From positions 1,302,001 through 1,366,000 of the forward strand of contig NZ_CP080377.1 of the NCBI RefSeq assembly GCF_019443505.1: a stretch of DNA of 64,000 bases, read 5' to 3'. Shown in pieces: positions 20,386 to 23,972 of this stretch. The stretch comes from Janthinobacterium sp. PAMC25594. Its GTDB lineage: Bacteria > Pseudomonadota > Gammaproteobacteria > Burkholderiales > Burkholderiaceae_D. The first letter of the stretch is position 1. Each line of letters begins with the position of its first letter. The notes under the pieces are model-generated. The model was not told the DNA's origin. It saw nothing but the letters and a program-made list of their open reading frames with translations, and did no database searches. The position numbers and the translations under genes are program-made.

Positions 20386-20458
20386 ATACGGGCTTGTTTC
20401 CCGCGCACTGAAGCGTTAATATGCAAGAATATACTTGCATATCAAGATGAGGCCGGCA

Positions 20459-20782
20459 ATGCGTGAAAAACTGGAAAAACTGCTGGCGCAGGGACGCGAC
20501 AGCGCCCTGCTGCGCTTTGGCCTGGGAGATGCCTGCCTGAAAGACAATGACGCCGAGCAAGCGGCCATCCACCTGGCGCAGGCGACGCAACAGCAAAAAA
20601 GCTATTCCGCCGCCTGGAAACTGCTGGGCAAGGCCCTGCACCAGCTGGGGCGGCTGGACGAAGCGCAGGCCGCCTGGACGACGGGCGTGACGGTGGCCCA
20701 GCAGCAAGGCGACCTGCAAGCCGTCAAGGAAATGACGGTGTTCCTGAAACGCCTGCAAAAACAGCGGCAGGCGGCCGAGTAA
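20459..20782 (+). CDS. Small TPR-repeat protein
   Basis: A 107-residue cytoplasmic protein with about two tetratricopeptide repeats: one around residues 13-45 and a second around 48-78, where AWKLLGKALHQLGRLDEAQAAW is split by the usual small-residue positions. TPR proteins act as protein-binding scaffolds. The ATG at 20459 is favoured because an AGG-containing site lies six bases upstream; an ATG at 20447 and a TTG at 20435 are alternatives. The gene converges on the metallo-beta-lactamase gene with only six bases between stop codons. No partner is evident. Confidence 0.75.
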   Translation: MREKLEKLLAQGRDSALLRFGLGDACLKDNDAEQAAIHLAQATQQQKSYSAAWKLLGKALHQLGRLDEAQAAWTTGVTVAQQQGDLQAVKEMTVFLKRLQKQRQAAE

Positions 20783-20788
20783 AACCGT

Positions 20789-21712
20789 TTAAGGCGCGTG
20801 CGCCGCGCCCCGCTCTTTCGCCAGACGCTTGGCCAGCAAGCCGCCCGCTTCGGCCGCATAGGCGCGGCAGGCATTCGCGTCGATCAGGGGATTGTCCGTA
20901 CCACTGCGCCTGGCGGCCTTGCCCAGCACGTCCGTCGTGCCCGGATGCACGGGGATGATGATGTCGCACGGCAAGGCAGCCACCTTGGCGATGCTCGCTT
21001 CGAACGAGGCCGAAATGTCCGGCGTCTTGCCTTTGCCAATGTAAGTAAAATCGCCGCTCGCATACGGGTTCAGGCTGTCCGCGTACACCACCTCCAGGCA
21101 GCGCTGGCCTTCGCACGAGGTCCAGGTCCACGTCGTGCCGCCGGGCGTGTGGCCCGGCGTCATGTGGGCCGTCAATACCAATGGGCCCACCTTGACGGTA
21201 TCGCCCTCGCCCACCGCCTTGACCTTGGCCACTTTGGCCACATGCACGACGGGATCAGCCTGGTATTGCGGGTCATCCTTGCCATTCGTGCCGCTTTGCA
21301 GCACGGGGGCGGCCGCTGCGCTGGCCACCACGGTGGCGCCGCTGGCCCTTTGCAGCGCGGCGATGCCGCCCGCATGGTCCCAGTGCGCATGCGAATTGAG
21401 GATATATTTCACATCCTCGATGCGAAAGCCCAGCGCCTTGATGTTTTCCACGATCAGGGGAGCCGATTGCGGCAGCGCGCCGTCGAGCAGGATGTGGCCC
21501 TGCGGGCTCGTCACCAGCACGGCGGACAGGCCGGCCGTGCCCACATACCAGCTATTGCCATAGATATTGAATGGCTTGACGGGCGCATTCCATTCCTTGC
21601 AATTGTCGCAATTAACCGGTTTATCCTGCAGCGGTGCGGGGGTCTTCGCCTGCACCGTGCCTGCCGCCATGGTCGCAACCGTAGCCAGCATCAACTTCGC
21701 CAATAGTGTCAT
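20789..21712 (-). CDS. Subclass B3 metallo-beta-lactamase (THIN-B-like)
   Basis: A 307-residue periplasmic zinc beta-lactamase. The signal peptide is residues 1-22 (ending TVQA). The zinc ligands of the B3 subclass are all visible: His108, His110, Asp112 and His113 in the HAHWDH motif, His188 in MTPGHTPG, and His256 in PVHPG; ADS at 211-213 fits the B3 serine that coordinates water. B3 enzymes hydrolyse penicillins, cephalosporins and carbapenems; J. lividum is known to carry the chromosomal B3 enzyme THIN-B, which this resembles. The second ATG (21712) is chosen because GGAG lies seven bases upstream; the first ATG (21718) touches that site. It lies just downstream of the BlaI/M56 pair. Confidence 0.93.
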   Translation of the reverse strand: MTLLAKLMLATVATMAAGTVQAKTPAPLQDKPVNCDNCKEWNAPVKPFNIYGNSWYVGTAGLSAVLVTSPQGHILLDGALPQSAPLIVENIKALGFRIEDVKYILNSHAHWDHAGGIAALQRASGATVVASAAAAPVLQSGTNGKDDPQYQADPVVHVAKVAKVKAVGEGDTVKVGPLVLTAHMTPGHTPGGTTWTWTSCEGQRCLEVVYADSLNPYASGDFTYIGKGKTPDISASFEASIAKVAALPCDIIIPVHPGTTDVLGKAARRSGTDNPLIDANACRAYAAEAGGLLAKRLAKERGAAHAP

Positions 21713-21729
21713 CTTCATCTCCAGAGTGT

Positions 21730-21759
21730 AAAAAGAAGGGCGCCCGCACTGGCGCGCCC
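21730..21759 (-). terminator. Terminator-like hairpin between the sensor and lactamase genes
   Basis: On the minus strand a GC-rich stem of about eight pairs with one bulge (21738-21745 with 21751-21759, five-base loop) is followed by TTCTTTTT (21730-21737). It lies in the 56-base gap between the M56-fusion stop and the lactamase start. It would attenuate read-through or mark a separate promoter for the lactamase. Confidence 0.65.
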
Positions 21760-21768
21760 GGGGGGGTA

Positions 21769-23532
21769 TCAATGCATGGGGCCAGTCCTGTCGGCCAGGG
21801 TGTCGCGGATGTGGCCGGCGTCGAGCGAGCGCCGCTGCGCGCCGTCGGCGTCCAGCAGCACCACGGTGACGTGCTTGCCGCCGCTGCGCATGCGCATTGT
21901 CAGGCAGCTGCCCGCCGCGTGGCTGCTGCCCGTCTTCGACAGCAAGATGTCCCAGCCTTGGCCGCCCACCAGCGGGTTCGTGTTGTGCAAGGTGCGGACC
22001 TTGCCATTGACGGCCACGCTCGCTTGCGGGTGGCTGGTGATGTTCGCGATGTCGGGATAGCGCGCGGCCGCCGCGACGATCTTCGCCACCTCGCTGGCCG
22101 TGGACGTATTCGCCGGCGAACTGCCGACGGGGTCCGTCAGGGTGGTGCGCGTCAAGCCCAGGCTGCGGATCTTCGCTTGCAATGCCTGATGAAATGCCAC
22201 GCTGCCGCCGGGATAGGTGCGCGCCAGCGCGGCGGCGGCGCGGTTTTCGGACGGCAGCAGCGCCAGTTGCAACAGCGCGCCGCGCGACACGGCCACGCCC
22301 TCGGCCAGCAGGCTGTTGCGCTGCATTGAAGCGTCGGCATCGGCGCGCACGATGCGCAGCTGTTCGTCGGGGGCCAGGCCCGCGTCGAGCACCACCATGG
22401 CCGTCATCAGCTTGGTGATCGAGGCGATGGGCACGACGGCGTCCGCATCTTTCGCCATCAGCACCTGGCCCGTGCTATCGTCAAATACCAGCATGTGTTT
22501 TGCGCTGACGGGCAAGTCCAGCATCGCGACGGCGGCCTCGGCCAGGGTCGCTCCATTCACCTCGGGCTTGCCCTGCACCTGCAGCAGCAAGGTGGCGCAG
22601 GCCAGCAGCAAGGCGGGCACGGCCAGTTTCCAGCCGCCCGTGTCGGGGCCGGGCGCCATCAGCCGTTCTATGCGCGTCAGCAACGCCCCGCCGCGGGCCG
22701 ACATCAGCAAACCGGAGTGCTGCGGCACAGCCGTGTGCAGGGACAAGGCATGCAGCGCCGTGGCCAGCTGCTGCGGGTCTTGCAGCGCTTGCGCAGCCAG
22801 CGCGTCGGCCACCTGTTCCCGTTCGACCCGCATGCGCGCCGACAGCCACCAGACGACGGGGTGAAAGAACAGCAGCGCCTCGGCCACGCTTTGCAACAGG
22901 TTGACCAGGTAATCCCAGCGCCGCACGTGCGCCAGTTCATGCGCCAGCAGCGCTTCGAGCAAGGCGACGGGCATGCCGCTCAGCAAGACGGCCGGCAGCA
23001 GGATGACGGGGCGCCAGAAACCCACCGTGACGGGGCTGGACAATCCCCCATGCAGCTTCAGCGGCACTTGCCGACTGCGGCGCAAGCCCATGTGCAAGGC
23101 CAGCGCATCGAGGCGCGCCTGCCAGATGGCTGGCGCGGCCACTGCCTGGCGGCGCAGCCTGCCGACCCAGGCCAGGCCCAGGCACAGGCGCAAGCTCATC
23201 AAGCCGACACCGGCGCTCCAGGCCAGCACCAGGGCCGGCATCCACGCTTGCAGCGCGGCGCGCCAGGCGGGCGGCGCCGCCACCGGCAGCTGGGCCGGAG
23301 ATATGCCAGACAGCAGAGAAAGCAGGTGGATGGCGGGAATGCACAGGCACAGCAGCAGCGCCAGCGCGCAGACGGCATAGCGCCAGCGCGCGCTGGCGTG
23401 GCGCAGCAGCCGGAGCAGGACTGCGGAGACGGCGCCGACGATCACGCCCTGCCAGACAAAATACAGCAAGACCCAGCCCAGCGCAGGGACAAGGTTGCCC
23501 AATTCGATGCCCAGGCGCATGTCCAGGTTCAT
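21769..23532 (-). CDS. BlaR1-like M56 metallopeptidase fused to a PBP7-like D,D-peptidase domain
   Basis: A 587-residue membrane protein. Residues 1-320 form a BlaR1/MecR1-type M56 peptidase: transmembrane segments near 15-40, 50-73, 97-120 and 302-320, with the zinc motif HELAH at 198-202 and a conserved EREQVAD downstream. Residues 340-580 are not the usual class D-like sensor but a penicillin-binding domain of the S11 peptidase group, like PBP7 (PbpG): the catalytic SITK at 371-374, SEN at 428-430 and KTG at 533-535. The topology places this domain in the periplasm. The start overlaps the blaI stop by four bases. The likely job is to sense beta-lactams and trigger cleavage of BlaI; residual D,D-endopeptidase activity is possible. 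Confidence 0.85.
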   Translation of the reverse strand: MNLDMRLGIELGNLVPALGWVLLYFVWQGVIVGAVSAVLLRLLRHASARWRYAVCALALLLCLCIPAIHLLSLLSGISPAQLPVAAPPAWRAALQAWMPALVLAWSAGVGLMSLRLCLGLAWVGRLRRQAVAAPAIWQARLDALALHMGLRRSRQVPLKLHGGLSSPVTVGFWRPVILLPAVLLSGMPVALLEALLAHELAHVRRWDYLVNLLQSVAEALLFFHPVVWWLSARMRVEREQVADALAAQALQDPQQLATALHALSLHTAVPQHSGLLMSARGGALLTRIERLMAPGPDTGGWKLAVPALLLACATLLLQVQGKPEVNGATLAEAAVAMLDLPVSAKHMLVFDDSTGQVLMAKDADAVVPIASITKLMTAMVVLDAGLAPDEQLRIVRADADASMQRNSLLAEGVAVSRGALLQLALLPSENRAAAALARTYPGGSVAFHQALQAKIRSLGLTRTTLTDPVGSSPANTSTASEVAKIVAAAARYPDIANITSHPQASVAVNGKVRTLHNTNPLVGGQGWDILLSKTGSSHAAGSCLTMRMRSGGKHVTVVLLDADGAQRRSLDAGHIRDTLADRTGPMH

Positions 23533-23921
23533 GGCGCCTTGCCATCCTTGCTGCGCAGGATCTTTTCAATTTCCAGCCGTTCCGCGTCGCTCACGTGTTC
23601 GCGCAGCGCCGTCAGCACCAGCGCCTTGCCGGAACCGGAAAACACCTTGCCGATCAAGTCCTTGAGCAGACTCGTTTGCAGCTTTTCCTGCGCCTCGACG
23701 GCTGCATACAGCTGCGGCCGCTGGCTTTCGTCGCGGCTCAGCAAGCCCTTGCCATGCATCAGCTGCAACTGGCGCAGCACGGTGGCGTAGCTGGCGTCGG
23801 CACGCTCGACCGCCAGCGCGTCATACACGGCGCGCGCGTCGGACGGACCGCGTTGCCACAGGATGCGCAGCAGGTCCAGTTCGGCGGCCGTGGGATGGGG
23901 AGTGGAGGTATTTTTTAACAT
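23529..23921 (-). CDS. blaI: BlaI/MecI/CopY family transcriptional repressor
   Basis: A 130-residue repressor with an N-terminal winged helix-turn-helix (PTAAELDLLRILWQRGP, then the recognition helix ASYATVLRQLQLMHGKG at about residues 43-60) and a C-terminal dimerisation region (VSDAERLEIEKIL). In Gram-positive bacteria such proteins repress beta-lactamase genes until cleaved by BlaR1. Here the gene overlaps the M56-fusion gene by ATGA, giving a two-gene translationally coupled unit, with the B3 lactamase next. The start ATG at 23921 lies 18 bases from the first TCTAGA palindrome, so it is probably autoregulated. The symbol follows family and context. Confidence 0.9.
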   Translation of the reverse strand: MLKNTSTPHPTAAELDLLRILWQRGPSDARAVYDALAVERADASYATVLRQLQLMHGKGLLSRDESQRPQLYAAVEAQEKLQTSLLKDLIGKVFSGSGKALVLTALREHVSDAERLEIEKILRSKDGKAP

Positions 23922-23938
23922 GACGCCAGAATACCGAT

Positions 23939-23972
23939 TCTAGAACGCCTTGTCTAGAACTTTTTTTCTAGT
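23939..23972. promoter_or_regulatory. Three phased TCTAGA sites, candidate BlaI operator
   Basis: TCTAGA occurs at 23939-23944 and 23953-23958, and TCTAGT at 23967-23972; each copy is followed by AAC or TC and the period is exactly 14 bases. The first two are perfect palindromes. The array lies 18-51 bases upstream of the blaI start. It differs from the Gram-positive TACA/TGTA box, so recognition by this BlaI is an inference from position and symmetry. Confidence 0.55.

Follow-up and report, generated by a model that had tools for sequence, protein, structure and literature searches.

A three-gene unit on the minus strand of Janthinobacterium sp. PAMC25594 DNA probably constitutes a beta-lactam-inducible lactamase operon that follows the logic of BlaI/BlaR1 with an exchanged sensor domain, as judged from the sequence of the 64,000-nucleotide stretch analyzed here (contig NZ_CP080377.1, positions 1,302,001 to 1,366,000; hereafter the window). 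The unit is composed of blaI (23529..23921), which encodes a 130-residue repressor of the BlaI/MecI family (PF03965, 63.4 bits against a cut-off of 22.6) with MecI and BlaI as its solved relatives, a sensor gene (21769..23532), in which an M56 metalloprotease is fused to a D,D-peptidase domain of the PBP7-type S11 family (both halves being recognized by Pfam, by NCBIfam, by a sequence search of the PDB and by fold comparison), and a gene for a 309-residue metallo-beta-lactamase (20789..21718). The blaI and fusion genes overlap by 4 nucleotides (ATGA), and the ATG of the lactamase gene is located at 21718, 50 nucleotides past the stop codon of the fusion. The genes, their strand, the ATGA overlap and the presence of a B3 lactamase gene after the fusion were all as described in the original prediction.

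The lactamase, scanned minus its first Met, belongs to subclass B3 (NF033105, 355.8 bits; cut-off 240), for which solved relatives exist. The closest named family is blaTHIN (NF000440), with a score of 584.4 bits under the cut-off of 700 for that family; by these profile scores the enzyme is THIN-like and is not filed as THIN-B. The same genome carries two further B3-like genes with 49 and 47% identity (L045 at about 1453 kb and L046 at about 3406 kb), and the roughly 5 kb around each gave no match to BlaI or to the sensor.

The sensor protein consists of a BlaR1-like M56 half at about residues 1-320 (PF05569, 78.2 bits; cut-off 31) and an S11 domain at about residues 340-583 (PF00768, 151.5 bits; cut-off 27.6; E 3.4e-44). 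It had been predicted to keep the BlaR1 layout, with four transmembrane segments and the zinc motif HELAH at 198-202, and to carry in its periplasmic part a PBP7/PbpG-like S11 peptidase with SITK at 371-374, SEN at 428-430 and KTG at 533-535; the domain reading was confirmed, and all four motifs were found at these residues. The AlphaFold model (pLDDT 80.1, pTM 0.48) places helices at 3-42, 48-75, 89-129 and 304-319, followed by the S11 domain, in keeping with four transmembrane segments and a C-terminal sensor domain as in BlaR1 and MecR1. The M56 half gave a profile match to BlaR1 8exs (46.4 bits), and the BlaR1 chains 8exs and 8exq are among the fold matches to the whole sensor, with TM-scores of 0.33-0.37 and a root mean square deviation of about 30 over the full length.

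A class D-like sensor domain, as known for BlaR1, was ruled out by Pfam, NCBIfam, and sequence and fold searches, as had been anticipated. Pfam detected no PF00905 (class D-like) match in the sensor at 1e-3, the same profile giving 163 bits for a class D enzyme found after another copy of the fusion (L114), while the NCBIfam model blaR1_generic reached 52.7 bits against a cut-off of 400, the match being limited to residues 101-254. No class D lactamase chain stands among the 50 listed fold matches, an absence that by itself proves nothing. Since the sensor domain is not of class D type, the fusion is not filed as a BlaR1. The score for the PbpG equivalog PRK11669 (203.2) also stays under its cut-off of 294. 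PBP7 is a cell-wall enzyme normally hit by penicillins, and the genome that encodes the sensor also has separate PBP7-like genes. Among 2405 database matches, the 120 listed proteins all carry both Pfam domains of the M56-S11 architecture, under names including M56 family metallopeptidase and D-alanyl-D-alanine endopeptidase. In an alignment of 26 of the 64 distinct fusion loci described below, with identity down to 38%, the residues H198, E199, H202, S371, K374, S428, N430, K533, T534 and G535 are invariant in all 26, and E429 of SEN varies.

Upstream of blaI, on the same strand, we identified a putative BlaI operator array (23926..23971) with TCTAGA at 23939-23944 and 23953-23958, TCTAG at 23967-23971 and a degenerate half-site at 23926-23931, arranged at a spacing of 14 bp. 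The array pattern gave two overlapping matches in the window against 0.00 expected. The sequence TCTAGA-N8-TCTAGA was found upstream of blaI in 57 out of 62 fusion loci (the 64 loci minus two without upstream sequence) and in none of 200 mononucleotide shuffles, and the 14-bp-spaced array recurs before blaI across genera, whatever gene lies downstream. When the whole genome was scanned, only two array matches with 2 or fewer mismatches were detected, both at this locus upstream of blaI. With up to 3 mismatches allowed, 12 places were found against 25 for a reversed control pattern, and the idea of the operator serving a wide regulon was rejected. A consensus scan located inside the array a promoter-like sequence, TAGACA-N17-TATTCT (23928..23956, minus strand), which is present with the same spacing in 58 of the 62 fusion loci (shuffles: mean 0.2, maximum 4). 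The -10 hexamer ends 6 nucleotides before the blaI ATG in the window (23922-23933), and in 32 of 33 loci with a B3 gene its distance to the inferred start is 6-7 nucleotides; blaI may thus be translated from a leaderless mRNA.

The three-gene order was surveyed within the genus. The full fusion was detected in 32 of 40 Janthinobacterium genomes with 69-100% identity, and the B3 gene lies directly downstream in every one of these 32 (30 read from the loci, 2 by coordinates and further loci), together with blaI. Among the eight fusion-free genomes, two of which are less than 90% complete, the best B3 match showed at most 50% identity in five and none was obtained at 1e-40 in three. The fusion and a close B3 gene are thus jointly present or jointly absent in 40/40 genomes. 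The conservation of the gene order indicates that the neighborhood is not due to chance, an explanation ruled out by the genus survey and by the control loci with M56 only.

For detection of the fusion beyond the genus, the searches covered the genus, family, order, class and a plasmid collection, and 64 distinct loci with the fusion were obtained in Burkholderiales: 32 belong to the genus, the scans of family and order contributed 20, and a contig-wide scan contributed 12. Duplicates were removed before this count (L035-L044, L071, L077-L081, L085, L097-L102 and L109-L111), and three of the 64 are imperfect, L048 by a contig end, L052 by a stop codon and L113 being partial. The family scan gave a strong match in 51 of 392 genomes (the 40 included), 19 of these outside the genus; the order scan of 300 genomes added one new full fusion (G100); and the class scan of 369 genomes, in which the top 3 candidates of each genome were scored, gave no fusion beyond that of the window. 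The contig-wide scan, which gives the best 80 loci so that the distribution is a lower bound, extended the set to Pelomonas/Roseateles, Paraburkholderia, Achromobacter, a Bordetella genomospecies and Burkholderiales metagenome-assembled genomes (MAGs). In L052 (G283), the stop codon breaks the fusion gene, and blaI and the adjoining receptor gene are kept.

A lactamase gene on the same strand follows the fusion in 45 of the 64 loci, as counted with a single reference for each class at a threshold of E 1e-8, by which other kinds of lactamase are missed in every group. These 45 comprise 33 of subclass B3, 2 of class A (L058, L108), 7 of class C and 3 of class D (OXA-114-like; L114-L116). The classes were assigned by NCBIfam on examples (class C, 510.8 against a cut-off of 415; class D, 355.2 against 280; class A, 285.2 and 270.4 against 200), and the remaining members by tblastn to these scored examples. 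For class C, all seven loci (L050, L053, L054, L057, L059, L060 and L062) have a gene for a TonB-dependent receptor lying between those of the sensor and the lactamase; it would be odd for uptake and lactamase to be controlled together. Outside the 64, a plasmid of Paraburkholderia caribensis carries the annotated order BlaI regulator, M56 metallopeptidase and class A lactamase. The proposal of BlaI/BlaR1 control of the B3 gene is supported by the layout, the operator and the co-occurrence within the genus, but the module is not peculiar to one B3 gene, as the same sensor precedes all four Ambler classes in Burkholderiales.

As controls, we examined BlaI/M56 loci that lack S11. A same-strand lactamase gene was found in none of 22 testable loci (25 rows, of which L003 equals L076, and L126 and L174 have less than 100 nucleotides downstream); in 7 of the 22 only 1.5-1.7 kb downstream, or about the first gene, is visible. 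One control, L167, has a class C-like match on the opposite strand. Likewise, no lactamase match was obtained for 54 rows with S11 only, these rows not being de-duplicated. A TonB_C tail was detected in 5 of 6 scanned M56 proteins without S11. The genome of the window itself includes such a second BlaI-M56 pair (L003, at about 3174.6-3176.2 kb), with an M56 protein ending in TonB_C and no adjoining lactamase gene. The fusions cluster in the trees of both halves, a pattern compatible with one origin of the fusion or with several: the S11 tree (98 rows) needs 5 label changes and the M56 tree (68 rows) 6, with starred branches forcing 4 in each, the changes arising partly from truncated or broken loci counted as unfused, and 19 close Janthinobacterium loci having been dropped before both trees.

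Read most economically, the locus would follow BlaI/BlaR1 logic but with a receptor of the PBP7 type. Dimers of BlaI bound at the TCTAGA array, within which the promoter lies, would hold the expression of blaI, sensor and lactamase genes low. The sensor would cross the inner membrane and expose its S11 domain to the periplasm, where a beta-lactam would acylate S371; the signal would travel through the helices to the cytosolic M56 site (H198, E199 and H202), which would cleave BlaI, probably at T104-A105, and upon derepression of the operon the B3 enzyme would clear the drug. Since lactamases of four classes are associated with the sensor, beta-lactams are the likely signal. In Staphylococcus aureus, self-cleavage of BlaR1 takes place at S283-F284 and BlaI is cleaved at N101-F102 (PMC9834060). 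Profile alignment sets S278-A279 of the sensor at the BlaR1 self-cleavage site as the putative self-cleavage point, in a weak alignment to a chain that is the F284A mutant, the P1' residue differing from that of wild-type BlaR1; it sets T104-A105 of BlaI at the known cleavage site, again weakly and with MecI as the displayed alignment. A105 is invariant in 17/17 BlaI rows, and A279 is present in at least 90% of 18 M56 rows. Both putative points thus have Ala at P1' (A279 and A105) in place of the Phe found at both in S. aureus, and by these alignments such a paired replacement is what a single protease specificity would give.

Several observations weigh against a beta-lactam-inducible operon of this type. 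No recognized lactamase gene follows the fusion in 19 of the 64 loci, the downstream gene being a receptor in 10 (of which L070 has only 1.5 kb downstream), a DAO-type oxidoreductase in 3 (L106 scored by PF01266, L104 and L105 by similarity) and an esterase-like gene in 3 (L113 and L118 scored by PF00756, L107 by similar sequence), with nothing recognized in 2 (L103 and L112) and a contig end in 1 (L048). Many BlaI/M56 pairs that lack a penicillin-binding domain are likewise preceded by TCTAGA-type arrays, so that the array speaks for BlaI control and not for beta-lactam sensing. Loci within one genus are not independent, the cleavage points depend on weak profile alignments, and the Roseateles locus L107 lacks A279, with Ser instead. 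Lastly, a GC-rich hairpin with a T-rich tract, predicted at 21730..21759 on the minus strand, sits between sensor and lactamase genes. Terminator-like sites in the hairpin region are no commoner than in shuffles (4 against 3.0), and the hairpin may be a candidate attenuator or mRNA stabilizer.

The main rival to beta-lactam sensing is a cell-wall signal. The natural substrates of S11 domains, as D,D-peptidases, are peptides, and the domain could read D-Ala-ended peptides, muropeptides or the state of cross-linking, the lactamase being one output of envelope stress. This we consider unlikely, even if in other genera the module precedes genes for a TonB-dependent receptor, a DAO-type oxidoreductase or an esterase-like protein, and a peptidoglycan dipeptide is described to act on BlaI in Bacillus licheniformis (PMC3305447); four classes of lactamase downstream in 45/64 loci are not what a pure wall signal predicts. 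As an observation on its own, the S11 sensor is followed in Pelomonas (L104-L106) and in a Rhodoferax MAG (L120, truncated at the start of its contig) by a gene for a DAO-type flavin adenine dinucleotide (FAD) oxidoreductase (PF01266 in L106 and L120), which possibly acts on D-amino acids.

Two other explanations are each very improbable. BlaI and the sensor might regulate only themselves, with the lactamase gene controlled separately, be it from a promoter of its own, through attenuation or by a route of the AmpR type. The hairpin and T-rich tract, predicted in 26 of the 33 B3 loci, would fit such a separation, as would the naming of AmpG-AmpR and BlrAB as the two major Gram-negative routes (PMC3660660), but close matches to the operator occur in the genome only upstream of blaI, the fusion and the close B3 gene are found or missing together in all 40 genomes, and the spacer between sensor and lactamase genes, 50 nucleotides here, is as short as 9-17 nucleotides in 5 of the 33 B3 loci (2 of the 33 were not measured). 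Such spacers leave little or no room for an intergenic promoter; one may lie inside the sensor gene. Alternatively, the fusion might be a membrane-tethered D,D-endopeptidase without signaling, its M56 half a relic, in line with the intact S11 catalytic set and with the endopeptidase name given to the protein in some databases. Against this stand the invariance of the M56 zinc motif in 26/26 fusions, the BlaI match found before every fusion locus with enough upstream sequence, and the separate PBP7-like genes of the same genome.

Just beside the operon, a perfect dyad, ATGCAAG-N6-CTTGCAT, is located at 20421-20440, where a small open reading frame with TPR repeats (20447-20782) follows at once. 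With a varied centre, this dyad was also observed in 17 of 30 genus loci read, and is a possible operator of some repressor.

The operon resembles the BlaR1/BlaI and MecR1/MecI systems of S. aureus and B. licheniformis in having a BlaI-family repressor, a membrane M56 protease with HExxH, a penicillin-binding domain C-terminal to the last transmembrane segment, and a lactamase gene under the same control region. It differs in the PBP7-type S11 sensor, BlaR1 sensors being described as class D-like (PMC7593790, PMC9045261), in forming one co-directional operon in place of a divergon (PMC3305447), and in its B3 instead of class A enzyme, its TCTAGA array and its Ala, not Phe, at the putative P1' positions. 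The BlaI/M56-TonB_C pairs (L003, L125, L164, L167 and L170) share the BlaI and M56 families and, in most loci read, a similar 14-bp-spaced upstream array (L003 is without TCTAGA repeats), but have a TonB_C tail in place of the penicillin-binding domain and no adjoining same-strand lactamase gene. Compared with the D,D-endopeptidase PBP7/PbpG, the S11 domain here stands behind an M56 membrane half and is encoded with blaI. AmpR-AmpG-AmpC and BlrAB/CreBC are likewise Gram-negative systems of lactamase induction; the present operon has neither a LysR regulator nor a two-component pair, and its sensor would bind the drug directly.

Class D-BlaR1-like proteins have been reported from Duganella, Janthinobacterium and Massilia, where they adjoin class C-D fusion lactamases (PMC5967600), so that the notion of BlaR1-like control in Gram-negatives predates the present finding. 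These proteins come from the same bacterial family, combine BlaR1/MecR1-type domains with a penicillin-binding domain and lie next to a lactamase gene; unlike the present sensor they are of class D type beside another lactamase, with no S11 domain mentioned in the accessible part of that paper. In a table of 2026, proteins of Legionella that bear the name M56 family metallopeptidase appear among the relatives given for a penicillin-binding protein clone (PMC12915585), and other M56-PBP combinations may therefore exist. Within the accessible parts of the open-licence literature, a scope that leaves out most subscription papers including the original ones on THIN-B, we found no M56-S11 sensor, no BlaI control of THIN-B or OXA-114, and no S11-type sensor coupled to all four lactamase classes.

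The sensor unit, by its position beside lactamases of all four classes, is likely an antibiotic alarm. On balance we favor, with some reserve, a Burkholderiales-wide plug-in beta-lactam alarm, in which one BlaI/M56-PBP7 unit with one conserved operator would be coupled to all four Ambler classes, including the OXA-114-like chromosomal enzymes of Achromobacter, as a direct-drug-sensing route of Gram-negative induction beside AmpR and BlrAB. Derepression in Achromobacter has been explained by AmpR ligands, OXA-114 expression not being measured in the accessible part of that study (PMC8874589). If true, beta-lactam receptors would have been built on one metalloprotease frame from two penicillin-binding domains, class D-like and PBP7-type; the M56/BlaI signaling step would be separable from the drug-binding step, which is testable by domain comparison; and a concrete hypothesis would be at hand for the control of OXA-114-like enzymes in Achromobacter.

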